From: Pseudomonadota bacterium
GTDB lineage: Bacteria > Pseudomonadota > Alphaproteobacteria > Rhodospirillales > Magnetospirillaceae
Length of the DNA: 64,000 nt
Direction: 5' to 3'
NCBI GenBank assembly: GCA_021793155.1
Contig: JAJYTF010000004.1
Location: 1-64,000 of the forward strand
This document shows, piece by piece, positions 641-30,896 of the stretch. Position 1 is the first letter of the stretch. Every line of letters starts with the position of its first letter. The notes beneath the pieces are model-generated. The model saw only the letters and a list, made by a program, of their open reading frames with translations, had not been told where the DNA came from and did no database searches. The position numbers and the translations under genes were made by a program.

Positions 641-3600
641 CTATGCCCCAGCTCCTGATGAAGAGTTGCCCTCCGCCTCGCCGTGGTCGGACGAACGCAG
701 CCTGATCCCTAGCCCCTTCCCGTCGATCAACTCGCCGGCCAGCTCGTCGATCACCCCCGCCTGCGCCCGGACATCCAGTTCCCCCCTTCGCAGCCGCTCG
801 CTCTTCCGCCGTTCGATTTCCGGCAGCGCCGTGCCTTGCGGAAACACTTTGGCCAGCCGGCGCAGTGCCTCGCTGAACCCCACGGCGTCATAGAGCCGGT
901 TGCGCAACCCGGTGTCGCCCGGCGTGGTGGAGAGCGCCCACAGCTCGATCGGGCCCAGGCTGTTGACCAGCTTCTGTTCGTATTTGGCGCCGTCGGCCTG
1001 CAGGATGGCGAGAAACGGCGCGCCGGCCGGACCGGGGCCGTTGAGGCCGTAGCGGACCACCTGGGCGCTGGCTTCCGACAGGTTGAACCGTTCGATGATC
1101 TCTTCGGCCTCCCGCTCGTCGCCGGCCTTCAACACGAACCGCCCGGTCGACTGACTGATCAGGGCGTCGCCCATGTCCTTGAGGCGCTGGCTGGAGAACC
1201 CGAGTTGGATGTTGTGTTTCGGACCTTCGCGCACATCAAGCTCGGCCTGGGCGCGCACCTGCGGGCTGCCCTCGGTGCGGTGCCATTCGTCGTAGTCGAG
1301 CCGTTTGACCGCTTCCCAGATCTCCTGGAACCGCTGGCGGTGATGCTCACGGACCGCGTCGGGCACGAACGGCAGGTAATCGGGATGCAGGAAGAAATTG
1401 CGCGCCAGAATGTGGCGGGCCAGCAGATACATCATCTCGGTCTGCCGGTTGGCCGCCGCCGAACCGGTCGGCGCCACCGCGGCGAGGTCGAGGACGATGA
1501 TCCGCGCCGAGCCGAAGTCGAGTTTGGTGGGCGCATTCAGCGTCGGGTATTTGCGAATGACATCGTAGATATAGCGCTCGAACAGCTCACTGGCCCGCTC
1601 ATGGGTGACGGCGATCTTCAGCCCGCTGAACAGGTCCTTGACCTGGTCGGTGCGCGCCGCGCTGATCAGGTCCTGCAACAGCGGCACGGCATGCCGCTGG
1701 GCGATCTCGGCCAGCCGCCATTCGCCGGCCTGGCAGAGGCCGGTGACCACGTCCCGCCAATGCGGCTCGTCCGGGTGGAGGTCGATGCGGTGGCCGGCGA
1801 TGGCCTCGTCGACCACCGGCTCGACGCCGCGCCGGTAACGTTTGGGCGATCCGCCCGGCACCTCGGTGCACAGCCGATAGGCCTCGTCGATGACCAGGCC
1901 GATCATCTGGGGCAAGCCCTCGAACGGCGTCGTGCTGTCGGGCGGCAGGGTGGCCAGGGTGAGAAAGTTCTGCAGGAACGCCCGTTCCAGGGGCAGCGGA
2001 TACTGGCAACCGACCTGCAGGTCGAAGATGTTGAATTCGTAGCCGGCAGCGAACTGCATCGTGGCGTAGATCGCCTCATGCCGGCGGGCCGGCCCCAGCG
2101 CTTCCTGGATCAGCCGGACGAACCCCTCCGCCGAGGGGCCGATATCGGCCTTGCCGATCAGTGGCAGCTTCGCCCCTTGCGTCCCCAGCACGGCCGGGCT
2201 CAAGGCTAAGCCGAGATTGATGGTGTTGGCCAATACCGACTTGCCCGAGCGCGGCGGGGCAACGAACAGGTCGAGCACCTGTGGGCGTTTCGCTCCGCCC
2301 GAGGGATCATAGGGCCAGAGGCTGCCATCGGGCCGGCGGAACAGCACCGACCCCCGTTCCCAGGGCGAGGCGGTGCGGTTCCATGGCAGCATGGCCAGCG
2401 CATCGCCTAACAGCGCCAGCATCGGTACCCCGGTGGAGGCCAGGGCCAGCCCAGGCACGCTGCTCATCACCCCGTCCAGCGGATCGCCGGCGACAGTGGC
2501 CGCCTTGCAGTTGCCCCAGCCCTCGACGCGCTGGGCCAGGGTCGAGGCGCGGCGGCGCAGCTTGCGCCCCTCCTCAGCCGGCGCCCAGCTGGCGAAGGAG
2601 GCACGCAAGCGGACGCTGACATGGTTGTCCTGTTCGCGGGCCTCGCGCAGGGCGGCGAAAGCGCGGCGCAGATCGCCATTGGCCGGGAACATGGAGAGGA
2701 AAGTGGCGGCGATTTCCTTGGCGGCGAACGCCGCCTTGCCACCCCCTTCGATCAGTACGGCACCACGCCAGGGGATACGGTCCTGGCCGAGCCAGGCGGC
2801 CAGCTCGATGAACGGCCGCGGGTCTTCCGGGCCGACCGCCAGGTCGATGCCGGCGTAAGTGTTGTCGCCGATGCACACCCGCTGACCGCCCTCGGTCATC
2901 GCGTCCCGATGAAAGATCTGGCTGGCCAGCGACGGCCACAGCAATCCTTCCTTGTTGGACGGCGGATCGTCGCCCTCGGGCAGCCGCGCCATCACCCGGT
3001 CGCCAGGGAGTTGCGCCCGCCAGTCCGAGCCGGCAGTCTCACGATAGACCGCCTCCCGCACCACGTTCAGCGCCTCATGGGGATCCAGTTCCGCCGCCCC
3101 GATATCCTGCGCCTTGAACGCCGACAGCACCCGCAGGACGAAGGCGCCGTGCCGGGCCGCCATCACCTCACTGCGCAAGTAAAACCGCTGGGCGCCGCCG
3201 ATGCCGGGGCACTGTTGCGCCAGCGCCGCCTGTTCCTCGCGCATCTGGGCGCGCTCTTCCTTGGTCAGCATGCCCTTGCGCGTCCACAGGATGCAATAGG
3301 CCGCCTCCCAGCGCATGATGCGGGCCCACAGGGCCATCCGCTCGTCGAGGATGTCGGCGAGATCCAGCCCCAGCTCGCGGGCCACCGCCCGGCAGGAATC
3401 CATATTGACCCGGTCGATCTCCACCGCCGACCGATCGGGATCGGAGACGTACCAGCCGACGAGAGCGTGCCCCCGGTTCTCCAGGGCGCCGGAAAGATCG
3501 AGGCGCAGGGCGGTGGCGATGCGGGCGATGTCGGCCCGCGTCGCCATGCGCCGCATGCCGTCGAGACGCAGGAACGACACATAGTCGCCCTGCTTGGTGA

Positions 3601-3703
3601 CCAGGGCTGGCCCATGCGCCGTTTCCAGGTCGCAGAAAGCCTGCAGCGGCTGCTTCAGGGCCAGGGAGAGGCTGGCCAGGCCGCGGGCAATAGCGGACAG
3701 CAT
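641..3703 (-). CDS. dotO: Type IVB secretion/conjugation ATPase DotO (IcmB/TraU)
   Basis: This 1020-residue protein is the VirB4-like cytoplasmic ATPase of Dot/Icm-type transfer systems, expected at the cytoplasmic face of the inner-membrane channel. A Walker A motif (APPRSGKS, about residues 481-488) follows a roughly 480-residue N-terminal region, and an acidic motif (GLVIDEA, about residue 604) follows it. The length matches IcmB/DotO and R64 TraU. The start at 3703 is chosen because GGAGG sits just upstream; a frame extension to 3718 would overlap the previous gene. It is the last gene of the minus-strand transfer operon, after DotN. The family call is firm; whether it drives conjugation or effector export is inferred from context, and an integrase-bearing element favours conjugation. 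Confidence 0.88.
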   Translation of the reverse strand: MLSAIARGLASLSLALKQPLQAFCDLETAHGPALVTKQGDYVSFLRLDGMRRMATRADIARIATALRLDLSGALENRGHALVGWYVSDPDRSAVEIDRVNMDSCRAVARELGLDLADILDERMALWARIMRWEAAYCILWTRKGMLTKEERAQMREEQAALAQQCPGIGGAQRFYLRSEVMAARHGAFVLRVLSAFKAQDIGAAELDPHEALNVVREAVYRETAGSDWRAQLPGDRVMARLPEGDDPPSNKEGLLWPSLASQIFHRDAMTEGGQRVCIGDNTYAGIDLAVGPEDPRPFIELAAWLGQDRIPWRGAVLIEGGGKAAFAAKEIAATFLSMFPANGDLRRAFAALREAREQDNHVSVRLRASFASWAPAEEGRKLRRRASTLAQRVEGWGNCKAATVAGDPLDGVMSSVPGLALASTGVPMLALLGDALAMLPWNRTASPWERGSVLFRRPDGSLWPYDPSGGAKRPQVLDLFVAPPRSGKSVLANTINLGLALSPAVLGTQGAKLPLIGKADIGPSAEGFVRLIQEALGPARRHEAIYATMQFAAGYEFNIFDLQVGCQYPLPLERAFLQNFLTLATLPPDSTTPFEGLPQMIGLVIDEAYRLCTEVPGGSPKRYRRGVEPVVDEAIAGHRIDLHPDEPHWRDVVTGLCQAGEWRLAEIAQRHAVPLLQDLISAARTDQVKDLFSGLKIAVTHERASELFERYIYDVIRKYPTLNAPTKLDFGSARIIVLDLAAVAPTGSAAANRQTEMMYLLARHILARNFFLHPDYLPFVPDAVREHHRQRFQEIWEAVKRLDYDEWHRTEGSPQVRAQAELDVREGPKHNIQLGFSSQRLKDMGDALISQSTGRFVLKAGDEREAEEIIERFNLSEASAQVVRYGLNGPGPAGAPFLAILQADGAKYEQKLVNSLGPIELWALSTTPGDTGLRNRLYDAVGFSEALRRLAKVFPQGTALPEIERRKSERLRRGELDVRAQAGVIDELAGELIDGKGLGIRLRSSDHGEAEGNSSSGAGA

Positions 3704-3714
3704 GGTTCCTCCGG

Positions 3715-4335
3715 TCAATCGGCCGCCGCGGGCAGGGCGTCGAGCAGCTGAGGATAGACTTCGCGGCCCTGGCGATAGAGGCGTCCCCGCCCGAGCAGGC
3801 GCACCCCGGCAAGCAAGACCGCCCGACGCTCATACGCCTCCGGCCGCAGGCCGATCAGCGCGGCGCCAAGGTCGGCCGCCGAGGTTGTCCCCAGGCGGCT
3901 GTGCGCCGCTTTGCCGCGTTCGGCCAGCGCCTGATAAGCGACATAGGCGGCGCGCAGGGCCTGCGTGTCGATCCGCGGCCGGCGGCCCATCGCCGGCGGC
4001 TCGCCATGGGCGCGGAAGATGCGGTGGATCTGACTGACCACGGTATTCAGCGCCGCCTGGCTCATCTCCGGCAGCCAGATCAGCGTGACCTCCTCGTCGA
4101 TGGTCGGGCGGTCGAGATGCTGGGTCAGATGGCAGAGCGCACAGCCGGGCAGCACATTGGCGGGGCGGTTGTCGGCATGGTCGCCGTTCACATGGAACGG
4201 CTCCAGCCAACCCCGTGCCGCCAGGCCGCAGAAGCGACAGCCTTCATCGTCAGTGAAGGCCGCCCCCTGCCGCTCCTCGGCATCGGCATTCCAGGCCGAC
4301 GGATGGGCGCTCAGCATGAGCGGCAGGAGACGCAT
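3715..4335 (-). CDS. dotN: Dot/Icm-type coupling-complex protein DotN (IcmJ/TraT)
   Basis: The 206-residue product resembles IcmJ/DotN. It has an HNH-like zinc site formed by CRFCG near residue 32, HVNGDHADN near residue 47 and CALC near residue 65, then the family stretch LIWLPEMSQAALN. In Legionella, DotN belongs to the type IV coupling complex with DotL. The start at 4335 has a GAGGG ribosome site; a longer open frame upstream overlaps the previous gene and is not believed. It lies between DotP and DotO with gaps of about 10 bases, as traT-traU do in IncI plasmids, which supports cotranscription. Confidence 0.8.
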   Translation of the reverse strand: MRLLPLMLSAHPSAWNADAEERQGAAFTDDEGCRFCGLAARGWLEPFHVNGDHADNRPANVLPGCALCHLTQHLDRPTIDEEVTLIWLPEMSQAALNTVVSQIHRIFRAHGEPPAMGRRPRIDTQALRAAYVAYQALAERGKAAHSRLGTTSAADLGAALIGLRPEAYERRAVLLAGVRLLGRGRLYRQGREVYPQLLDALPAAAD

Positions 4336-4343
4336 CGCCACCC

Positions 4344-4757
4344 TCACCCGCCGGTGCCGAACTGCACCATGGCCGGGGCATCGTTGATCGTGGCGTTGCC
4401 GCCGCTCGCGCTGACCGCCGCCTTGTTGATCCACACCCCGCCGGTGGCGAACAGCCCGCACAACACCAGCCCGGCCAGGCCCATGGCCACCCGGCCGGTC
4501 TCGCGGTTCTGCGGATGGCGGCTCTGCCACAGCGCCCAGACGCCGCCGATGAAACACACCAGGGCGGCGACATACATCGCCATGCCGCCGAACTGCCCGC
4601 CGGCATTGATCGCTTCACCGGACATGGCATTGAGCTGAGCCCCCAGCCCGCCGGCCGGCGAGGCCGCTTGGCCGAAGGCCGAGCTGGCGGAACCGAGGGA
4701 GGTGAGGAACAGGGTTGCGGCAAGGACACGGTCCTTCCGCTGGAATATTGTGGTCAT
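4344..4757 (-). CDS. dotP: Small inner-membrane transfer protein DotP-like (IcmD/TraR)
   Basis: This 137-residue protein has a hydrophobic N-terminal segment ending in small residues (signal-like, about residues 10-32), then two hydrophobic segments (MYVAALVCFIGGVWALW and MGLAGLVLCGLFATGGVW). Size and topology fit IcmD/DotP, one of the small polytopic proteins of type IVB systems, and the position between DotE and DotN is the R64 traR position. Primary sequence alone is weak evidence, so the name rests mainly on synteny. The ATG at 4757 is preceded by GGAG. Its function in the channel is not established from sequence. Confidence 0.6.
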   Translation of the reverse strand: MTTIFQRKDRVLAATLFLTSLGSASSAFGQAASPAGGLGAQLNAMSGEAINAGGQFGGMAMYVAALVCFIGGVWALWQSRHPQNRETGRVAMGLAGLVLCGLFATGGVWINKAAVSASGGNATINDAPAMVQFGTGG

Positions 4758-5379: not shown

Positions 5380-6519
5380 CTACTGGATGGTGCCGTGTTC
5401 GGTCTGCACCACCCAGGCGGCACCGCGCTGGCCGATAGCGGTGACCCGACCGTAGCCGGGCACCTCGTCACCCACCGCAATCTCCAGCGGCTTGGCGGCA
5501 TCGCCGCCCAATTCGGCCAGCATGGCGAGGCCGGGAGAGGCCGCCTGCACCCGGTAATGCGGCTTTTCTCCTGGCGCGGCAGACGCCTTGGCCGGCCGTG
5601 TCTCGGAGGCCGGGCGGGGGTCGGCGATCGGGGGCGCCGGACTGGTAGCCTCGGCCAGAGCAGTGCGGGCCCCGCCCATGGCGGCGGCGATGGCGCCCTT
5701 GGCCTCGGCCAGGCCGAGCCGCCGGTCGAAATCGGCCAGCCGGGCGCCCACCGTACCGGCGGCCCGCTGCTGGTCGGCCCGCAAGCCGGCGATGTCCGAC
5801 CGCATGTCGCGGAGCAGCACACCCAGTTCGGTGACCAGCGACAGCACTTCCACCTGTTGCGGCTCCGCCATCGGGGCCGCCTGCAGGGCGACGGCGGTCG
5901 CCACGGTGTCTGTCTTCGCCGGCACTGCCGCCTGCGGCGCTGCGACGGGGCTGAGCGAGAGTGGCGCTGCCGGCTTGGCTGGCTCCGCCACCAGGCCCAC
6001 CTCCGCCACTGCCGGGCCGGTCGCCGCGGCGATCTCAGCCGTCCTCTCGTCCCGGCCGACAGGCTCTACAGCGTTCGCCGCGTCCGGATGGTCCGTGGCG
6101 GTGTCCGTCGGAGCCGGGTCGGCCGCTGGGGCCACGCCATAGGCGAGCCCTTCCTTGAGCGCGTCCGCCTTCGCGGCCACCGGCACCGCCGGCGTGGCGG
6201 CCGGCGTCGCAGGCTCCGGCACCGGCAGGGTTGCCAACTGCGCCGCCGGGGCCAGGGGATCTCCCATCCCGCCCTGGCCCGTCCCCGTGGCCTGCCCGGC
6301 CGGATGAGGACGAATGACAGCCAGGCCGAGGACGGAGGCCGCGGCGACGATGACAACCGCCGCCGCCCCCAGCAGCAGGCGGCGGCGTCGTTTCGCCGGT
6401 GGATGGCAGAGCCGCGTCTGTGGGTCCGCGGTCAGAGACGCGTCCGCCTCGCCCGAAATGCCGATAGGGACATCGGACAGGGTAACGCCCAGGGCGTCCT
6501 CACCACTCTGTGCCAGCAT
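5380..6519 (-). CDS. Bitopic membrane transfer protein, DotF/IcmG/TraP-like
   Basis: The 379-residue protein has a roughly 50-residue cytoplasmic part, an arginine cluster (KRRRRLLL), one membrane segment (about residues 52-75) and a long Ala/Pro/Thr-rich periplasmic linker. A short coiled-coil-like region (LRDMRSDIAGLRADQQRA) and a compact C-terminal domain follow. This architecture fits IcmG/DotF or TraP, an inner-membrane component contacting the core complex. The ATG at 6519 has a strong GGAGG site 6 bases upstream. It immediately follows the radical SAM cassette and precedes DotE. Sequence drift in this family is large, so the assignment is by architecture and gene order. Confidence 0.6.
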   Translation of the reverse strand: MLAQSGEDALGVTLSDVPIGISGEADASLTADPQTRLCHPPAKRRRRLLLGAAAVVIVAAASVLGLAVIRPHPAGQATGTGQGGMGDPLAPAAQLATLPVPEPATPAATPAVPVAAKADALKEGLAYGVAPAADPAPTDTATDHPDAANAVEPVGRDERTAEIAAATGPAVAEVGLVAEPAKPAAPLSLSPVAAPQAAVPAKTDTVATAVALQAAPMAEPQQVEVLSLVTELGVLLRDMRSDIAGLRADQQRAAGTVGARLADFDRRLGLAEAKGAIAAAMGGARTALAEATSPAPPIADPRPASETRPAKASAAPGEKPHYRVQAASPGLAMLAELGGDAAKPLEIAVGDEVPGYGRVTAIGQRGAAWVVQTEHGTIQ

Positions 6520-6645
6520 CTTTGCCTCCTGCCTCAGCACTCCACGCAGGCCTGCACGGTGTCGCGGCAGGGCGCGAACACCATGCCGGGATTGCCGAGA
6601 GTGCTCGATGGCGCGGTGAACCGCGGTGGCGAGGCGGGGCGGCGC

Positions 6646-8043
6646 TCAGGCTGCGCCGATCGAGCAGAGGGTCTCGGTGCCTTCGTCCCATCCCTCCCAG
6701 AGGAAGTCTTCGTGCCGCCCATCGGCGATCAGCCGCAGAGCATACCGGACCTGCTCCTCGTAGAAGCGGCAGAACGCTCCCTTGCGCTCCATCCCGCCGT
6801 TCATCTCATAGGCCTCCGCCGGACAGGGCGAGCCGCAGAAATGGCGGATCGGACAGGTATTGCAGCCTTCCACCTGTTCGATCCTGCGGCCGCTCACCAG
6901 GCGGAATGGTGGACTGTCGAGGATTTCCTCGATCGGCTGGCGAAACAGATTGCCACCGGCGAATGCCGGCAAGCCGATGAATTCGCTGCAGGGAAACAGG
7001 CTGCCGTCGGGGGCCAGGGCAAAGAAGCTGCGCCCACCGCCGCAAGGCGAGATGTCACACATCAGCCGCCGCGCCGTCGGCGCCAGAATGGCGATCAGGA
7101 TATTGGCAAAGTTGGCCACCACCAGCTTTCGCCCGGAGGTGCGATAAAGCGCGTGCGCCCGCTCGAGCGCGGCGAGATAGGCCTGCGCAACATCATCGTC
7201 GCTGCCGCGGACGTTGCGAGCACCGGCAAGGGTGCAGCGGGTGACGTTGAGCATGCAGGCCGGCACCTGATGCTCATGGAGGAAATCCACCATGGCGGTG
7301 AGATGCGGAAGATTCTCCGAGGTCATCGTGCAGATGACGTTGAACCCGGGATAGCCCTTCAGCCGATCGATGGCGCGCACCACCTGATCAAACACACCGT
7401 CGCCGTTCCAGCGCCGCCGGGTCCGGTCGGCGACCGCGGCGATCGGACCGTCGAGCGACAAACCGATGCCGACGCCACGGTCGGTCAGGAAGGCGATGGC
7501 CGCCTCATCCAGCAGCGTGGCATTGGTTTGCACGCCGAACCGGAAGCGATCGCCATAGGCCTCGATGCCGGCGAAGATCGCCTCCCGCGCCAGCAACGGC
7601 TCGGCGCCGTGAAAGATGACCTGCGGCAACCGCTCGGCCGGCATATGGCCGCGGAAATAGCTGTGCAGCCGGTCGAGGGCGGCGAGCACCGTCGCCCTAT
7701 CCATCTGCGCACCGCCGCTCCGCATCGCCTCGGGGATATAGCAGTAGGAGCAATTGAGGTTGCAGCGTTCGGTCGGATTGAAATAGACGGCCGACGGTTT
7801 CAGGCCGAAGCGCAGCAGGTCCATCTCGCGGCCGAAGATCTCGGCCTTGGCCCGCAAGCTCTCCAGCAGCTCGCCGCCGGCCAGCGCATCGGCCAGCTGC
7901 TCCTTGCGCACCAAACCCCAGAAGGCGGTCTCAGACTCGACGAGCGCGATATGCGTGGGATGGGCGATGTCGAAAGGCTCGAGCGTGGCAAGAGGGGCCG
8001 TTGCCGGCCCCTCCGCCAGGACGGGACGGATCGCCGCCGTCAC
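6646..8043 (-). CDS. cbpB: Peptide-modifying radical SAM/SPASM enzyme, CbpB-like
   Basis: The 465-residue enzyme carries the radical SAM cluster motif CNLNCSYC (CxxxCxxC, about residues 94-101), which binds the SAM-ligated 4Fe-4S cluster. Its cysteine-rich SPASM C-terminus includes CDISPC near residue 328, FPCSEF, and CNTCPIRHFCGSPC near residues 393-406. Such enzymes install radical-dependent crosslinks on ribosomal peptides. The GTG start overlaps the stop of the upstream 46-codon peptide gene by 4 bases, which implies translational coupling. The pair lies behind a cobalamin riboswitch. From memory this matches the NCBIfam pair CbpB/CbpA; neither the substrate residue nor the reaction is known. 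No CxxxCxxC-independent B12-binding domain is visible, so cobalamin appears to act on expression, not catalysis. Confidence 0.85.
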   Translation of the reverse strand: MTAAIRPVLAEGPATAPLATLEPFDIAHPTHIALVESETAFWGLVRKEQLADALAGGELLESLRAKAEIFGREMDLLRFGLKPSAVYFNPTERCNLNCSYCYIPEAMRSGGAQMDRATVLAALDRLHSYFRGHMPAERLPQVIFHGAEPLLAREAIFAGIEAYGDRFRFGVQTNATLLDEAAIAFLTDRGVGIGLSLDGPIAAVADRTRRRWNGDGVFDQVVRAIDRLKGYPGFNVICTMTSENLPHLTAMVDFLHEHQVPACMLNVTRCTLAGARNVRGSDDDVAQAYLAALERAHALYRTSGRKLVVANFANILIAILAPTARRLMCDISPCGGGRSFFALAPDGSLFPCSEFIGLPAFAGGNLFRQPIEEILDSPPFRLVSGRRIEQVEGCNTCPIRHFCGSPCPAEAYEMNGGMERKGAFCRFYEEQVRYALRLIADGRHEDFLWEGWDEGTETLCSIGAA

Positions 8044-8180
8044 CGCTTCACCTGCTTGTCCATCAGCACATAGTGCGACAGTCCGGTCCCTTCGGCGTCG
8101 CAGGTCTTGCGGATGGCAATGACGTCGGGCCGCGGCTCGGCCGGTGTTTCGGCGGGTTTGCTCTTGGTGGTCTGGGTCAT
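8040..8180 (-). CDS. cbpA: Candidate radical-SAM-modified precursor peptide, CbpA-like
   Basis: This 46-residue peptide has a polar Pro/Glu/Lys-rich leader-like N-terminus and a distinctive C-terminal half with IRKTCDAEGTGLSHY, containing a single cysteine and a GTG motif. It is followed by the radical SAM gene with a 4-base overlap and preceded by a cobalamin riboswitch, the arrangement of a RiPP precursor and its maturase. The ATG at 8180 has GGAG 7 bases upstream. An in-frame ATG at 8246, just after the riboswitch, would give a 68-residue product and also has a purine-rich site, so the start is not certain. Mature form, export and role are unknown. Confidence 0.78.
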   Translation of the reverse strand: MTQTTKSKPAETPAEPRPDVIAIRKTCDAEGTGLSHYVLMDKQVKR

Positions 8181-8257
8181 GGCGTTCTCCGATGCCTGGT
8201 GAAGGACGTCGGCAGGCACAGCTGTGCCGCCGAAACCCTTTTCCATCGGATTTCGCC

Positions 8258-8425
8258 CCTCGTGACTCGCATCCAGCAGGTCTTCTGGCTCTCGGATCGT
8301 CCGTCGAACTGCGCCTTCCCGGTGGGTTGCCCCACCAGTGGCCGGTTTGTCACCCTGCAGCCGACGTCCCCGATTACAGCGGCGGGACCGCCACGGAATT
8401 GCACCGTGTTCCGGGATACTGGATA
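8258..8425 (-). ncRNA. Cobalamin (adenosylcobalamin-type) riboswitch
   Basis: Read on the minus strand, this stretch contains in order the hallmarks of the class: GGTGCAATTCCGTGGCGG, GGTCCCGCCGCTGTAA, then GCCACTG, GGGAAGGC, and the B12-box-like AGCCAGAAGACCTGC. It ends just before the precursor-peptide gene, so it should control the cbpAB pair. It lies between dotG and cbpA and has its own promoter-like sequence upstream. No T-tract terminator was found downstream; a GGCACAGCTGTGCC palindrome at 8215-8228 before the ribosome site may be part of the expression platform. The ends are approximate. Confidence 0.9.
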
Positions 8426-8430
8426 GCGCT

Positions 8431-8459
8431 GGATACGGCGGGGATCACCGTCCTGTCAA
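8431..8459 (-). promoter_or_regulatory. Putative sigma70-type promoter of the riboswitch-cbpAB unit
   Basis: On the minus strand TTGACA (8459-8454) and GTATCC (8436-8431) are separated by 17 bases, starting 12 bases after the dotG stop codon. The position is right for transcript initiation just before the riboswitch. The -10 is imperfect; a second TATCC lies slightly downstream. Confidence 0.5.
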
Positions 8460-8471
8460 GTCGCATCCTGG

Positions 8472-9689
8472 TCATGGAGCGGCAGTGACGTCGTCGAGGA
8501 ACATCACCCCGACACTGGCATTGGCGGCGAGATTGACCGTCGGCCCCTTGGGCGCCTGTTCGCGCAGCGCCGCCCCCACCTGGGCAGCGGCGACACCGGC
8601 GGCGATACCGGTTTCCTGGCTGAAATCGAGATGATTGACCGCCGTCACTCCGCCCAAGGGGCTGAGCACCGAGGTGGTGTTGGACTGGGCGATGGCCTGG
8701 CCGAGACCTTGGACAAAGGCGGCGGCGGCGGGCAGCAGGAAGCGCGACAGGTAATGCTGATCGACGCTGGTGGCCACCGCCGTCTCCATTGACTCAGGGG
8801 CAATGACCAGGCCCTTGACCTCGATGGTCCGGCCTTGGTGGATCAGCGTGTTGACGTTAACCACCAGCCGGTCGGCCTGTTTGCTGAAACCGCCGATCAT
8901 CCGGTCGCCGGCGATCGGCCCGGAATCCGCCTGCAGCACGATGGGGCCGCCGGAGTCGGAACTGACCGCCAGGACGGTATGGGCAAAGACGCCACGTCCG
9001 CCGGGAACCAGTAACCGGCCTTGCGCCTTTTGCGCGGGCGCCGGTGACGCCCCGGCGACCGGCCGCGCGGCACCCGCCGCCAGCTCGTCCTTGGCGCGGC
9101 TGGCGCCCTGACCGATCGGAGTGCCGGTGGCCGTCTCCGGCGTCAACACCACGTCGGTCCGAGGGCTACGGCCGTCCCAGCCGGCGAACAGCTGGGTGAT
9201 CACCGCCCGATACTCCTGCTCCGCCTTGGGATCGATCGCAGGACCGCTGGTCGCCGGCGGCGTGGTTGAGGCGGCGGCCACCACCACCGGACGGGCGATC
9301 GGCGCCGCGGAAGCCGGGCGGGCGACGGCCGGGGCAACAGCTGGAGCAGCAGCGGCCGACGTCTCCGGTGGCGGCGCCACGGCGACGCTCGCCGCCAGCG
9401 GTGGGGTGTAGGACTGGCCCTTGTCCAGGGCCGTCTTCGCATGCTCCTGCGACGCCGTGCGTAGCAACGCGTCCTGCTGCGGATTGCTGTCGAGGCCGCC
9501 CGGCAAGCGATTGATCGGCGGCATGCGGGCGACTCGCGACGGAGGCGGTGTTTCTGGACGGATCAGCGAGACGCCGGCCACCAGTCCGACCATCAGCAGG
9601 CCGGTCGCCGCGATGATCAGCAGGCGGCGCGGGCCGGCCTGGCCGGCGGCATTGAAGCGCAGGGCAAAGGGCAAGCGGGGGGTAAACAT
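8472..9689 (-). CDS. dotG: Core-complex protein DotG (IcmE/TraO)
   Basis: The 405-residue protein is the VirB10-like component spanning the periplasm in type IVB systems. It has a short cytoplasmic N-terminus, one membrane segment (RRLLIIAATGLLMVGLVAGV, about residues 20-40), a long Pro/Ala-rich linker and a conserved C-terminal beta domain that includes a hydrophobic helical stretch and the tail NASVGVMFLDD. It is much shorter than Legionella DotG, lacking the pentapeptide-like repeats, and close to plasmid TraO in size. The ATG at 9689 lies 20 bases after dotH with a GGAG site. The next gene in the usual order, dotF, is displaced by the riboswitch-cbpAB cassette. Confidence 0.8.
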   Translation of the reverse strand: MFTPRLPFALRFNAAGQAGPRRLLIIAATGLLMVGLVAGVSLIRPETPPPSRVARMPPINRLPGGLDSNPQQDALLRTASQEHAKTALDKGQSYTPPLAASVAVAPPPETSAAAAPAVAPAVARPASAAPIARPVVVAAASTTPPATSGPAIDPKAEQEYRAVITQLFAGWDGRSPRTDVVLTPETATGTPIGQGASRAKDELAAGAARPVAGASPAPAQKAQGRLLVPGGRGVFAHTVLAVSSDSGGPIVLQADSGPIAGDRMIGGFSKQADRLVVNVNTLIHQGRTIEVKGLVIAPESMETAVATSVDQHYLSRFLLPAAAAFVQGLGQAIAQSNTTSVLSPLGGVTAVNHLDFSQETGIAAGVAAAQVGAALREQAPKGPTVNLAANASVGVMFLDDVTAAP

Positions 9690-9708
9690 GGCCGCGACTC
9701 CTTGGGCG

Positions 9709-10668
9709 CTATTGATCCTTGAGGCCGGCCGAGACGGTGCGCCCCTGGACCGCCAGCAACACCACCGGGGTGGCGGGAACGGCATAGACGGTGAGACCGC
9801 CCTCGCCGTTCTCCGAGGCCGTCCATTCGGGGGACAGCAGCGTATGGCGGGTGCGCAAATAGACGTGGTCGCCCAAGCGCCAAGCCCGCAGCTCGTCGGG
9901 CGAGACACCGGTCACCGCCTGCGGCACCGCGTCGGCCGGCGGCACCCCTTCCAGCAGCCCGGTGAGGAACGGCGCTCCGGTATCCGGAACATTGGGCGGC
10001 GTGACAATCGCCAACTTGGCATTGGGGCCGCGATCAGCCAGCTGCACGCTGAGATCGGCGTCATAGCGCGGACCGCCGCCGATCAACAGGAAGCTGACCG
10101 GCTTTGGTGCACCCTGCAGGGTCACCAGCAGGCCGCCGCGGGGTGTGAGCGACATCGGGGTGATTTCCAGGACATTGCTGCCCTTAACCGGCGTGCAGAC
10201 AAAGAAGCCGACCGCCGCCACTGCTGGTCCCCCTGCACCGAAATTGGCGGCCGTGGCGCTGGGGGTGCCGCAATTGGCGCCGCCGGCCACCGCTGCCGGG
10301 TTGCTGTTGGTGTCCCAGGCGATCGGCCAAGGCTGGCCGGTGGAATCGAAGAAGCTGAGGGCCGTCGGATAGCCCTTGACGGTGTGGATGATGCTGGTGG
10401 CCTCGCCGGGAACGAAGGAGACGGCGATCCGCCGGTTGACCGGCATGGCCGCTTCCGTCCCGGCGTCTTCCTTGGCTCGCGCCACGTCGCCATAGCGCCG
10501 GCCCAGTTCCTTGATCATCTCGGGGGTCAGCGGGATCGCGTCCTTGACCGCCTTGTCGGCCGCCGGATTGGACTCGGGAACCACTGGCGGATCGCCATTC
10601 GCCTGGGCCAAGGCAGCGAGCGGCAGGAGGAGGCCGGCCAGAACGGCGGCGATGGCTTTCGACAGCAC
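9709..10668 (-). CDS. dotH: Core-complex protein DotH (IcmK/TraN)
   Basis: The 319-residue exported protein has a signal peptide (LAGLLLPLAALAQA) followed by the IcmK/DotH region, including PLTPEMIKELGRRYGDV and the beta-rich C-terminal part. DotH forms the outer-membrane-proximal ring with DotC and DotD. It starts with GTG 13 bases after the DotI stop and is followed by dotG, the conserved traM-traN-traO order. DotC was not found in this window. Confidence 0.83.
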   Translation of the reverse strand: MLSKAIAAVLAGLLLPLAALAQANGDPPVVPESNPAADKAVKDAIPLTPEMIKELGRRYGDVARAKEDAGTEAAMPVNRRIAVSFVPGEATSIIHTVKGYPTALSFFDSTGQPWPIAWDTNSNPAAVAGGANCGTPSATAANFGAGGPAVAAVGFFVCTPVKGSNVLEITPMSLTPRGGLLVTLQGAPKPVSFLLIGGGPRYDADLSVQLADRGPNAKLAIVTPPNVPDTGAPFLTGLLEGVPPADAVPQAVTGVSPDELRAWRLGDHVYLRTRHTLLSPEWTASENGEGGLTVYAVPATPVVLLAVQGRTVSAGLKDQ

Positions 10669-10680
10669 GGACCGACCCTC

Positions 10681-11310
10681 CTATTCCACTTTGGCGACGA
10701 GTTGGTCGACGGCCAGGCCGTCGGGGTGATCGGGCGACTCGATGCGCACCACCAGCGCGGTGATCATCAGATGCTGGGTGGTCTGCTGATTGCTGTTCTG
10801 GCAGGTCTGGACGATCGGCAGCTGGATCTCATAGGCCAGCGCCCCCTTAACCACCATCGAGCGGCGGATCACCGCGGCACGCTGCGCCTGGGCGTAGCAG
10901 AGCAGCAGGGCCTGCTTCATCTTGTCGAAATTGCCGTTGCCGATGTAGCTGGCGGCGAAACTGTTCCAGCCATGGACGGTAAAGCGGCGGCTCGCCGTGT
11001 TCAGCTGTTCCGGATAGTCGTGATAGTTGACGTTGTAAGGCGCCAGCACCGCCTTGACCGTCCACTCCAACAGCTCGGTGTCGTCGACGATCGGGCTGTC
11101 GAGCGCCACGGCAGGGTGCGGCGGGTGCCTGCCGTCGACGAAGAAATAGCGAGGCGGCGGGGGATGGAGGCGCAGCGTGACGTCGTCGATCGAGATCACC
11201 GTCAGCACCGCCGCCATGGCGATGGTCAGGCCGATGCAGCGGCTGACCAGGCTGGCTTGGAAATCGGGGTCCGACAGGCGGCGGCTGACCGCTTCACGTT
11301 GGTTCTGCAT
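10681..11310 (-). CDS. dotI: Inner-membrane transfer protein DotI (IcmL/TraM)
   Basis: The 209-residue product matches IcmL/DotI. It has a short cytoplasmic N-terminus, one membrane helix (about residues 20-40) and a VirB8-like periplasmic domain with the family's PYNVNYHDYPEQLN and FDKMKQALL regions. The ATG at 11310 was chosen over upstream in-frame codons that run into the previous gene. It heads the structural part of the minus-strand transfer operon. Confidence 0.83.
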   Translation of the reverse strand: MQNQREAVSRRLSDPDFQASLVSRCIGLTIAMAAVLTVISIDDVTLRLHPPPPRYFFVDGRHPPHPAVALDSPIVDDTELLEWTVKAVLAPYNVNYHDYPEQLNTASRRFTVHGWNSFAASYIGNGNFDKMKQALLLCYAQAQRAAVIRRSMVVKGALAYEIQLPIVQTCQNSNQQTTQHLMITALVVRIESPDHPDGLAVDQLVAKVE

Positions 11311-11323
11311 CCCCGCCCCTCCT

Positions 11324-12217
11324 TCAGGCGATATAGCGTTCATCGGCACCGCCATGGCGGTCCTGATAGGCCCGCGTCCGCTTGGCCTCACGGCAGTAGA
11401 AGCGGTCGCCGGTGCGCGGCGCCCAGAACACCCTTTTCAGGATCTGGCAGGTCCGTTTCACATACCCGGCCGCCTTGACGTTGGCCTCGACCACCGAGGG
11501 ATCGTACTGATCGACCAGCAGCGCCCGCTCATGGCGCGGCAGCTGCAACCGGGTCTGCCGAGAGCGCACCGAGGCCGGCGTGCGTCCCATATCCCGCGCG
11601 ATGGCCTTCCAATGCTGATTGGCCCAGGACCGGCGCGCCAGTTCCTCGTCTTCTTCCGGAGTCCACGTCCGCTCAACCCGCTTCTGCACCGGCTGGGCCA
11701 GGATCTCGGCGGGGAACGGCAGTGGGAGGGCGACGACGTTGCCGCTCTCCGGTGCAACGGTCCCAGGGGTGTGGATTTCCTTTGGTGCCGACAGCAGCGG
11801 TGCCCGGAACACCGCCTTGCGGTCGCGCCGCGGCAAGCCGAGGCGGTGCGCCTTCGACCGCACGCCCGCCGTTGAGCGGCCCAGCCGTTCGCCGATGCTC
11901 TCGGCATGCAAGCCCTCCAGCCACCAGGGAATCAGCCTGTGGATATCGATGAGGCTCCACGGATGGCGGCCGCCGGCCTTGCGTAGCGGGCGGTCATGCG
12001 GCGTCGGCAGATCGAGGGCGACGAGGCGATCGTCCAACTCCGCCCGGGTCAGACCGAGAGTGAGGCAGATGGCCTCGATGCCGTGCCCCCGGCCGACCAT
12101 GCCGACCAACAGCGGATCGAGTGGCAGGACCACGGTCGCTGCAGGCGGCCCGGCCGGTGGGAGCGTCGCCAGCGGCGGAGGCAGGACGGAAGGGAGGGAA
12201 AGCGCCACGGCGGTCAC
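11324..12217 (-). CDS. SANT/Myb-like HTH protein at the head of the transfer operon
   Basis: The 297-residue protein contains a clear SANT/Myb-like helix-turn-helix (RTWTPEEDEELARRSW, continuing to GRTPASVRSRQTRL, about residues 180-225). A related element occurs earlier (ESIGERLGRSTAGVRSKAHR). Such domains occur in GcrA-like and phage or plasmid DNA-binding proteins. It begins with GTG, ends 14 bases before dotI and is probably cotranscribed with the transfer genes. That position suggests a transfer regulator or a DNA-processing accessory factor, but the family is not one I can name. The C-terminus contains one cysteine pair far apart and no catalytic motif. Confidence 0.6.
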   Translation of the reverse strand: MTAVALSLPSVLPPPLATLPPAGPPAATVVLPLDPLLVGMVGRGHGIEAICLTLGLTRAELDDRLVALDLPTPHDRPLRKAGGRHPWSLIDIHRLIPWWLEGLHAESIGERLGRSTAGVRSKAHRLGLPRRDRKAVFRAPLLSAPKEIHTPGTVAPESGNVVALPLPFPAEILAQPVQKRVERTWTPEEDEELARRSWANQHWKAIARDMGRTPASVRSRQTRLQLPRHERALLVDQYDPSVVEANVKAAGYVKRTCQILKRVFWAPRTGDRFYCREAKRTRAYQDRHGGADERYIA

Positions 12218-17326: not shown

Positions 17327-17419
17327 CGATAATGATGCGCGATATGGAGGCCCGATCCCGTCGGCACGCCAGCAAGTTGCTGCATGGGCGGCAGAAGAAC
17401 TCAGTGATTGAGATATGAA

Positions 17420-18205
17420 ATGGATAGCCCAACCCGGGGTCAACGAATTTCATTTTCGACCAAGGTCGCGGCAGGCTTCCTTGTCTTTTCAGGGGCCTGG
17501 TTCGGGCTGTCCGACCACCTGACGTCGATCCTTTTCCCCGACGGACTTACCAAGATCACAATATCGAATACGTTGTCGTTTGTCGCAGCCACCGCTCTCC
17601 TCCTGAAGCTGGTTCTTCTGGCCGAGGAACGACGACGAATCGGATGGGAAGCCCGCCTTCGTCAGGATGCGATTCATGATCCATTGACCAATTTGCTCAA
17701 TCGCCGCGCCTTCATCAGTCATCTGGAAGCGGCGGTCGAACGGGTCCGCCGTACAGGCTCACGGCTCGGCGTTGCATTCGTCGACTTGGACGGCTTCAAA
17801 GCAGTCAATGATGAATTCGGTCACGCCTTTGGCGACAAGGTGCTCCAGGCCGTTGCACAACGGCTGCGCGCCACCTTACGAACGGCCGATATTGCCGGAC
17901 GGTTGGGAGGCGACGAATTCGTCGTTGTCGTCGAGCCCGATAAAGGCGATAGCGCCGAGACCCTTGCGGCTCGCCTGCTCGAAGCATTCCGGTGCCCTTT
18001 AGAAATCGGTGGGCAGGGTTACTCGCTCACTTTGAGCATCGGCGTCTCCCATTTCCCGGACAACGCTACCGAAGCCGAACAACTGGTGCGCGCCGCCGAT
18101 ATGGCGATGTACACGGCAAAAGCCGCCGGGCGAAACGGGTTCGCCATTGCTGAACCCGGAGCCACTGTGAACCGCAGGCCGTTGAACCTCACATGCGGGC
18201 GTTGA
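17420..18205 (+). CDS. Membrane diguanylate cyclase (GGDEF domain)
   Basis: The 261-residue protein has two hydrophobic segments (about residues 14-36 and 48-70) with a short loop between, then a complete GGDEF domain. The catalytic GGDEF is near residues 162-166 and the product-inhibition site RTAD is placed five residues before it, so both activity and feedback look intact. It should make cyclic di-GMP from two GTP at the membrane. An upstream in-frame TTG at 17408 is possible; ATG 17420 is preferred. It sits among regulators of the conjugative element, next to an XRE gene and palindrome. Confidence 0.88.
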   Translation: MDSPTRGQRISFSTKVAAGFLVFSGAWFGLSDHLTSILFPDGLTKITISNTLSFVAATALLLKLVLLAEERRRIGWEARLRQDAIHDPLTNLLNRRAFISHLEAAVERVRRTGSRLGVAFVDLDGFKAVNDEFGHAFGDKVLQAVAQRLRATLRTADIAGRLGGDEFVVVVEPDKGDSAETLAARLLEAFRCPLEIGGQGYSLTLSIGVSHFPDNATEAEQLVRAADMAMYTAKAAGRNGFAIAEPGATVNRRPLNLTCGR

Positions 18206-29540: not shown

Positions 29541-30869
29541 ATGGCGCACTTCAACAAACAACGTAAAAAGTGGATGTACGATTTTGAAATAAATGGGAAA
29601 CGCCGCTCAAAATACATCGTGCACCCGGAAACGGGAAAAGAGCCACGGAACAAGACGGAAGCCGTTCGCTTCGAAACCCTGATCCGCGCCAAGGCCTTCG
29701 CGCAGCCCGAGTCGACACCCCATCCACCCGGCGATTTCACCGTCGGCATGGCCTTCGATGCGTTCACGACACGCAAGAAAGGTGGCGGCAACTGGGAAAA
29801 CCAAAAGGTGTATATCGCCGAATTGGCGCGGTTCTTTGGCTTGGCGACGCCGGTGCGCGACATCACTGAGCAGACAATTTGGGAATATATCGCCCACGCC
29901 CGCCGCCAGCCCATTATGGTCTATATGGGAGGCGGCAAGACCAAATCGGAAGCGGTGAAGCTGCGCCGCGACAGCAGCCTCTACCGCCCTTGCAAATCCG
30001 GCCGAACGCGCGCGGACTCCACCATCAACCGATATCTCGACTGCCTGCGCGAAACCCTGCGCATTGCTTACAGCCTGCGTGACAGCGACGGGCGCATGCT
30101 TCTTTCCAACCCCGTGCCGGTCGTGCCGGACCTGACGGAACCGGAGAAGCTACCCCGCCCGATCCCCGATGATGTGCTCTGGCAAATGGCCGACCGGGCG
30201 CCTGCCCACCTTGCCTGGGGCATCCTCCTGGCTCGCCTCATGGGGTTTCGGAAAGGGGAAATGTTCGCCCTCACCATTCAGCAGGTGGACTTCCAGAACG
30301 GCGGCATCTGGCTGGCCGCCGAAGATACCAAGGCCAAGCGAGACGAATTCATCCCGGCCGGCCGGGAGGCCCTGGAGTTGCTGACCTATCTCGTGGCCGA
30401 AGCGATTGCCCGCAAGACCGAGCACCTGATCACCTATCGGCGTCGGCTCAGAAGGGCTCCCGGTGAGAAAGTGCGCTTCACCGAGCCGGTACCGATCAAG
30501 AACCCGAGGACGGCCTGGCGCAGGGTGATGAAGGAATTGGGCGTCGCCGGATTCCACAAGTTCCACCATACCAAGGCCAGTTTCGTGACCGCGATTGCCC
30601 ATAACGCGACCGCAGCGGTCACCCAGGAGCTGGCCCGCCATCGCGACTACCGCACCACCCAACGCTATCTGAAGGTGAACAACCAAGCGGCCCGCGCCGC
30701 CGTCGATGCGGCTTCTATCAGGGTGCCGACGGCAACTGCCCTCGCCCCGAGTCCCAAACAAGAGTCCCAAACAGAGGATCCGATGTTTGGAGAGATGACC
30801 GCTAAGTCCTTGAATTTAATGGTCGGAGCGGCGGGATTCGAACCCACGACCCCCAGTCCCCCAGACTGA
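29541..30869 (+). CDS. int: Tyrosine recombinase (integrase) of the conjugative element
   Basis: The 442-residue protein has an N-terminal SAM-like core-binding part (about residues 60-170) and a catalytic domain with box I Arg R237 (MGFRKGEMFALT), box II H339, box III H367 (LARHRDYRTT) and nucleophile Y376 (QRYLKV). The box II pattern normally HxxR reads HKFH, so the second catalytic arginine (position 342) is histidine. The last 50 or so codons run into the tRNA-Pro gene on the other strand, so the C-terminus (AAGFEPTTPSPPD) is tRNA-complement sequence, a common sign of integration at a tRNA 3' end. It should integrate and excise the element. Confidence 0.88.
   Translation: MAHFNKQRKKWMYDFEINGKRRSKYIVHPETGKEPRNKTEAVRFETLIRAKAFAQPESTPHPPGDFTVGMAFDAFTTRKKGGGNWENQKVYIAELARFFGLATPVRDITEQTIWEYIAHARRQPIMVYMGGGKTKSEAVKLRRDSSLYRPCKSGRTRADSTINRYLDCLRETLRIAYSLRDSDGRMLLSNPVPVVPDLTEPEKLPRPIPDDVLWQMADRAPAHLAWGILLARLMGFRKGEMFALTIQQVDFQNGGIWLAAEDTKAKRDEFIPAGREALELLTYLVAEAIARKTEHLITYRRRLRRAPGEKVRFTEPVPIKNPRTAWRRVMKELGVAGFHKFHHTKASFVTAIAHNATAAVTQELARHRDYRTTQRYLKVNNQAARAAVDAASIRVPTATALAPSPKQESQTEDPMFGEMTAKSLNLMVGAAGFEPTTPSPPD
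30820..30866. other. Putative right attachment site (3' part of tRNA-Pro)
   Basis: The integrase frame ends inside the tRNA gene, so the crossover is expected in the 3' half (T arm to anticodon loop). The matching direct repeat at the left end was not found in the first 640 bases and should lie outside the window. Exact core limits cannot be set here. Confidence 0.45.
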
Positions 30870-30896
30870 TGCGCTACCGGGCTGCGCTACGCTCCG
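30820..30896 (-). tRNA. tRNA-Pro (anticodon GGG)
   Basis: The 77-base gene folds as a tRNA. Acceptor arms are CGGAGCG and CGCTCCG with an encoded ACCA end, the D arm is GCGC/GCGC, and the anticodon stem is TCAGT/ACTGG. The seven-base loop CTGGGGG gives anticodon GGG, and the T arm contains GGTTCGAATCC. It is the integration target of the element to its left. Confidence 0.93.

Follow-up and report, generated by a model that had tools for sequence, protein, structure and literature searches.

The described systems closest to the locus discussed here are the SCIFF/CteB ranthipeptide system and anSME, the substrate of which is a sulfatase. Formation in vitro, by CteB and Tte1186, of a link between Cys32 and Thr37, five residues on, has been reported (PMC8326336 and PMC8172795). 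The cross-link partner in CteA is disputed, Thr37 or Thr34, another study giving Thr34 and a gamma-carbon link (same papers). With respect to control, a B12 riboswitch can govern a B12-independent isoenzyme, e.g., metE (PMC11260477). CbpA/CbpB itself is a named family with the curated models TIGR04164 and TIGR04163. These models are called cobo_pep and rSAM_cobopep, names that suggest a link to cobalamin; in the open-licence PMC literature, neither an experimental paper on the pair nor any cobaltophore literature on it was found.

The window, i.e., the whole 64,000-nt stretch of DNA that was analysed, comes from a member of the Magnetospirillaceae (Alphaproteobacteria). The cassette runs from 8464 to 6646 on the minus strand and consists, in this order, of a promoter-like element, a riboswitch, cbpA, and cbpB. 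An earlier note, made from the sequence alone, had assigned the genes to the CbpA/CbpB family as a 46-codon peptide with one Cys and an overlapping SPASM radical SAM gene, and the profile searches bear this out. The cbpA gene (8040-8180, minus strand) encodes a precursor peptide of 46 residues with a single Cys that matches TIGR04164 at profile positions 1-25 with 60 bits (cut-off 35). The cbpB gene (6646-8043, minus strand) starts with GTG, shares 4 nt with the end of cbpA, and encodes a radical SAM/SPASM peptide maturase of 465 residues that matches TIGR04163 with 702.1 bits (cut-off 375). The adenosylcobalamin-type riboswitch read by the same note was likewise recovered in the Rfam covariance search: the aptamer (8258-8448, minus strand) is a full-length match to RF00174, spanning model positions 1-189 with 82.8 bits (E 7.1e-19) relative to a gathering threshold of 31.5. 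The promoter that had been placed ahead of it stands in part. The promoter-like element (8430-8460, minus strand) begins 12 nt past the dotG stop and carries CTTGACA (8460-8454), which is invariant in all eight aligned rows (the window included), followed after 18 nt by TATCCA (8435-8430). However, a consensus scan gave no promoter site, and TATCCA, which lies within the Rfam match at its 5′ edge, is uncertain as the −10 element.

DNA similarity extends over window positions 6648-8464 for L033, the nearest relative (the same locus as L147, judged by equal identity), and over 6645-8423 for L034, in agreement to within a few bases with the limits noted earlier. Given this extent and the invariant CTTGACA, the promoter, the switch, and both genes seem to make up a single block, of which the genome has one copy. 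Simple transposon borders were considered and rejected, since no direct repeat flanks the cassette; the one inverted pair (17 nt, 6564-6580 and 8557-8573, 82%) is situated beyond its ends and was regarded as a chance occurrence. The scan for terminator-like sites returned none between cbpB and dotF and three inside cbpB (shuffle mean 1.0). The interval between cbpB and dotF (6541-6645) is part of a strong fold spanning 6520-6660 (z −3.66).

Related loci were drawn from public genomes as the best 80 of 419 stretches, and the counts out of 80 below refer to this set. A riboswitch is present in 68 of the 80, corresponding to 68 of the 74 that have more than 480 nt upstream, and in these 68 loci its start is 381-620 nt ahead of the CbpB match. 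Ten further loci (L004-L013) all carry one. Among the six roomy loci of the 80 that lack a switch, L077, L092, and L097 lie among cobalamin biosynthesis genes, while L076, L081, and L108 show neither a switch nor cobalamin or cobalt genes. Our own model, R1, was built from 16 cbpA-linked switches, and it gives the window switch 180 bits, which has to be read with the window being one of the 16 to which the model leans. With R1 the cbpA-linked switches score 89-184 bits, whereas seven other matches in the same loci score 54-75. (L050, the match of which begins at the contig start, was left out of this switch search and of the tree discussed below.) A J6/3 sequence specific for cbpA was also considered: AAG is found at J6/3 in 67 of the 67 cbpA-linked switches located by pattern, but it is not distinctive because L114 and L118, other switches of the same genome, have AAG as well.

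The expression platform (8184-8257, minus strand) can form either a hairpin, CGAAATCC/GGGTTTCG, or an anti-Shine-Dalgarno helix, TCCGATG/CATCGGA. In the window and 17 near loci, hand-chosen for nearness to it (one, L039, is labelled Acidobacteriota), the helix covers the Shine-Dalgarno sequence, either completely or, in a few rows, with a mismatch, and the hairpin, which shares UCC with the helix, excludes it. Over these 18 chosen sequences the helix is paired in 96.8% of the cells, and the minimum free energy of the platform corresponds to z −3.42. One compensatory change is present in L035; this covariation gives the helix modest support, 25 of 500 shuffles scoring as high. In other loci, a simple search found shorter and less consistent complements to the Shine-Dalgarno sequence. 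Taken at the level of sequence, control in the near relatives looks translational. That B12 represses the cassette is assumed here, the direction being taken from the riboswitch class.

The peptide core, the conservation of which in homologous loci the earlier note had made a check on its reading, was found in 78 of the 80 loci, and the two misses are cut at contig starts. In comparing these peptides it should be kept in mind that resemblance to the window core guided their choice, as resemblance to the window CbpB guided that of the CbpB relatives beside them, and that such a choice favours conservation. All 78 have G-x-GLSH; Cys is located six residues ahead of GLSH in 77, and Arg occupies the column three ahead of Cys in 77. 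The residue directly ahead of GLSH is Thr in 63, Val in 11, Ile in three, and Ala in one, while the column two past Cys is Ala or Pro in 69 of the 78, L038 having one extra residue. Because the cbpA starts were set by a simple Shine-Dalgarno rule, lengths (about 29-60 residues, the shortest, in L088, having some 29) and the number of peptides with a single Cys (69 of 78) are approximate. On these alignments CbpA is a fixed motif, C-x-A-x-G-T-GLSHY, rather than a diversifying core, and with the core nearly invariant, a diversifying antimicrobial RiPP was ruled out. The peptide offers one conserved Cys and one conserved His, with no evident set of cobalt ligands beyond these. A search for CbpA relatives in the PDB gave one match, with an E of 0.9, taken as chance.

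CbpB matches Pfam PF04055 (radical SAM) and PF13186 (SPASM) above the cut-offs, and C94, C98, and C101 together with nine further Cys columns are invariant in 51 sequences. An AF2 model based on these 51 sequences has a pLDDT of 86.8, and its nearest solved fold among the matches listed is CteB (Foldseek E 2.5e-19; Z 33.1 over 374 aligned residues). The match begins at CbpB residue 19 in this whole-model comparison, which bears on a possible N-terminal RRE of the CteB type. The resemblance to the SCIFF/CteB system comprises the closest SPASM fold and a Cys with a Thr five residues on. It differs in that CbpA has one conserved Cys instead of six, is near-invariant across phylum labels, and stands under a B12 riboswitch; its cross-link, moreover, is putative. 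By analogy, we infer that CbpB modifies the conserved Cys of CbpA, perhaps as a thioether, which is the first guess because CbpA shares the five-apart spacing of Cys and Thr with CteB/Tte1186. The Val and Ile found at the partner position in some peptides lack a hydroxyl, however, and this, like the dispute over the partner in CteA, counts against a thioether.

Matches to TIGR04163 that exceed its cut-off occur in 11 of the 398 genomes sampled from the phylum and in 24 of 55 genomes of the family, own genome included in both. In a tree of the window copy and 79 of the 80 loci, 12 phylum labels occur and the label changes 19 times, the least possible being 11. Because genome bins or their labels could be in error, these changes do not prove transfer between phyla. 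In the same tree, L033 and L034 are the loci grouped with the window copy (100/95), and L036 stands apart from it; the 79% identity of L036 to the window is the same as that of L146, the copy of a genome of the same genus (G401). Azoarcus sp. Aa7 carries two copies of CbpB that are nearly identical and lie on separate contigs (L099 and L101). In Telmatospirillum siberiense (L043), the cassette is closely preceded by a group II intron end (1-98), and a fluoride riboswitch is found further on (9038-9098). The CbpA/CbpB pair occurs at E 1e-60 or better in one of 72,556 plasmid records. On a plasmid of Methylovirgula sp. HY1 (L122), cbpAB lies about 2 kb from pqqA, pqqD, and pqqE. A phage origin was also considered, and a scan of viral contigs with six exact peptide patterns gave no relative.

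The setting of the window copy differs from that of other CbpA/CbpB loci: here a dotG-like and a dotF-like gene flank the cassette, in an operon with an integrase next to it. Upstream, on the same minus strand as all genes of the operon, is a dotG/traO-like gene (8472-9908; NCBIfam DotG E 2.5e-32, 111.9 of the 750 bits required; TraO E 1.4e-22, 80.5 of 225; TrbI likewise below its Pfam cut-off), preceded by dotH and dotI of the type IVB apparatus (9709-11391), which match Pfam PF12293 with 259 bits and PF11393 with 183 bits, above the cut-offs. Downstream are a dotF-like gene (5380-6540; NCBIfam DotF E 0.005, 16.5 of 200 bits and so below the cut-off), an icmJ/dotN-like gene (3715-4557; IcmJ E 4.1e-12, also below its cut-off), and a gene for a 1025-aa protein (641-3718) that matches no NCBIfam or Pfam family. 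The last is matched in L123 (35% over 993 aa), where the icmJ-like gene is matched as well, in the same order. At the contig start, positions 47-499 encode a ThsB/TIR-like (Thoeris-type) protein, perhaps a fragment. Another genome of the family, G415, has a related operon in which DotH, DotG, DotF, IcmJ, and the 1025-aa protein follow one another as in the window, and there the dotG TAG is directly followed by the ATG of the next open reading frame, so that the junction is empty of the cassette; the profile search of that genome gave no TIGR04163 match at E 1e-60. This bears out the proposal that dotG and dotF are adjacent when the cassette is absent, DotF being identified by position and by likeness, since its C-terminus resembles, by eye, the frame abutting dotG in G415. 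The type IVB (IncI/Dot-Icm-like) identity is thus clear for DotH and DotI, while for DotG and DotF it would follow from gene order and the likeness to G415. Matches to the window DotG occur in three of the 119 genomes searched, one of them its own; G419, the third, has CbpB and DotG on different contigs.

Further along the window, an integrase gene (29541-30869, plus strand; Pfam Phage_integrase E 9.5e-15) ends in overlap with a tRNA-Pro (30820-30896, minus strand; ARAGORN and Rfam), the likely integration target; the true end of the integrase frame is uncertain. Chromosomal riboflavin, SHMT, and ALAD genes follow past the tRNA. A partial copy of the tRNA-Pro (51 nt, 96%) is located at 181331-181381 of contig C44 of the same genome (G000), 2.1 kb from the end of that contig, in the orientation expected at a far boundary, and no whole tRNA was found in the stretch examined around it. 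C44 is a different contig from that of the window, and the transfer operon lies near a contig end, so the element would span a contig break. A second partial copy (42 nt, 95%; 179739-179780 of C44), 1.6 kb from the first, perhaps marks another insertion, and a RES-like and Xre-like pair (named by eye; L155, 9755-10782) lies near the candidate far boundary. Because dotG and dotF abut without the cassette in G415 and an integrase is present at the tRNA-Pro, the cassette is probably cargo of a putative integrative conjugative element. The idea of mobile conjugation cargo fits the setting here, then, but it does not hold as a general rule. Apart from the rarity on plasmids, the eight transfer-region proteins of the window matched none of 90 and then none of 113 other loci, where the same kind of search finds CbpB in 90 of 90. 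The 113 loci represent fewer than 113 places (some, e.g., L147 and L033, are duplicates), and with flanks from near-nothing to 10 kb (about 1.5 kb or less in 33) divergent systems can be missed. The placement between dotG and dotF, as far as these searches reach, appears exceptional.

Cobalamin or cobalt genes are found near the cassette in 18 of the 80 loci, and in nine of these one lies directly downstream in the same direction: bluB in L094, L098, and L100; cobT in L085, L087, and L107; cbiX in L092 and L097; and cbiM in L109. For two of the nine, the query was taken from the locus itself (CbiX from L092, BluB from L098), and weak cases among the 18 are L096, with one CbiF match of 79 bits, and L107, with a CobT of 84 bits. 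In the other 62 no such gene occurs in the flank examined. The reference proteins, in the choosing of which alone greedy gene calls were used, pass the NCBIfam cut-offs except CobO and CbiX, the best matches of the latter being nickelochelatase models below their cut-off. In three Planctomycetota loci (L067, L069, and L071) the opposite strand carries cobT and cobU, and a second switch there is oriented away. Moreover, the five other RF00174 switches of the window's genome precede CbiM, CobT, NicoT, CobU, and BluB. A cobalt- or cobalamin-related role, which had been suggested earlier, is therefore supported as an association. As a rough comparison for these counts, two ordinary chromosomal genes of the window (Cys/Met enzyme and ALAD) and a sigma-54 activator frame matched one locus each of 90 related loci, whereas a frame at 17408-18205, away from the cassette, matched 14 of them. 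Clustering of neighbours (clusters not annotated singly) gave none both common and close; an ATPase-like cluster is seen in 14 loci, its median distance being 5.9 kb.

Complementary occurrence of CbpB with CbiM or CobN was looked for, CbpB being present in 24 of the 55 family genomes, and none was seen; the CobN family also contains Mg-chelatase. The pair is carried by Alphaproteobacteria with proteins of the CobN/Mg-chelatase family and by lineages with cbiD and cbiX nearby. Since both groups have it, the step served is probably one common to both cobalamin routes, i.e., cobalt supply or late assembly.

These data lead to the following model, which as a whole we consider about as apt to be right as wrong: a B12-controlled, CbpB-modified peptide encoded by a mobile cassette that aids cobalt or cobalamin supply. 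The complete cassette would have entered a type IVB transfer operon, between its dotG and dotF, in an element integrated at tRNA-Pro. A scarcity of adenosylcobalamin would free the Shine-Dalgarno sequence of cbpA, and CbpA and CbpB would be made. The CteB/anSME-like CbpB would then act on the Cys of CbpA, the most likely modification being a thioether to the Thr, Val, or Ile five residues on. The product would remain in the cell and help in cobalt supply or late cobalamin assembly, such that B12 is restored.

Other roles for the product have to be weighed against this model. The CbpA product might be B12-sparing: instead of helping to make B12, it would serve at low B12 as a peptide cofactor or regulator that takes the place of a B12-dependent enzyme or holds it in check. 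Such a role has a precedent in the control of metE (PMC11260477) and would fit the 62 of 80 loci without a cobalamin gene in the flank examined, but the repeated same-direction adjacency to bluB, cobT, cbiX, and cbiM, the sites among cobalamin genes, and the five other switches of the genome, all ahead of cobalt-uptake or cobalamin genes, make us regard it as rather improbable. We see still less reason to expect a secreted metallophore or signal that gathers external cobalt or cobalamin. The likely B12 control, the cbiM-type gene by cbpB in L109, the cobalt-uptake genes under other switches of the genome, and the ATPase-like cluster in 14 loci (putative, and not identified as an exporter) are in keeping with it. 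Against it are the lack of a neighbour cluster both common and close, by which the metallophore-like product of the earlier note is not favoured; a peptide that goes down to 29 residues in L088 with no separate leader; and a core near-invariant across phylum labels, unlike those of secreted competitive products.

With respect to the chemistry, the possible main rival to the thioether is that CbpB, as anSME, turns the Cys of CbpA into formylglycine. The sulfatase maturation signature is C-x-A/P-x-R, which the C-x-A/P-x-G of CbpA resembles, and the substrate context thus agrees in the 69 of 78 peptides with Ala or Pro two past Cys. The fold of anSMEcpe matches the CbpB model with a Z of 31.9, and the profile matches are near-equal (E 5.6e-29 for anSME, 5.5e-30 for CteB). 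However, CteB matches at least as well, aligning without a gap just past the Cys in FPCSEF, part of SPASM, a point at which anSME has one, and its match runs over residues 19-441 of the model (first and last given) relative to 82-453 for anSME. Moreover, the substrate of CbpB is a dedicated peptide of about 29-60 residues and not a sulfatase. We therefore hold formylglycine to be unlikely, and the thioether is preferred. Equally unlikely, in our judgement, is that the cassette is no working cargo but a remnant in a transfer operon that has lost its mobility. Its occurrence between dotG and dotF in one genome only, the absence of the window transfer proteins from 113 other loci, and the nearness of the operon to a contig end could be read in this way, but the icmJ-, dotF-, dotG-, dotH-, and dotI-like frames and that of the 1025-aa protein are open, and both integrase and tRNA target are present. 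It is also conceivable, but highly doubtful, that the cassette couples DNA transfer to the B12 status of the host. The dotF-like, icmJ-like, and 1025-aa genes lie downstream of the cassette in the same direction, and repression of cbpA-cbpB translation at high B12 might exert polarity over them; the three terminator-like matches in cbpB, with none between cbpB and dotF, could help or hinder this. If so, the element would make its transfer machinery in a host short of B12 and carry a peptide that relieves the shortage onward.

In the survey of related loci, a near-invariant peptide with its own B12 switch is found under many phylum labels and repeatedly beside genes for cobalt uptake and cobalamin synthesis. 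It may represent a new helper of B12 metabolism, and the copy in the window suggests that the unit is able to move as one complete, regulated block.
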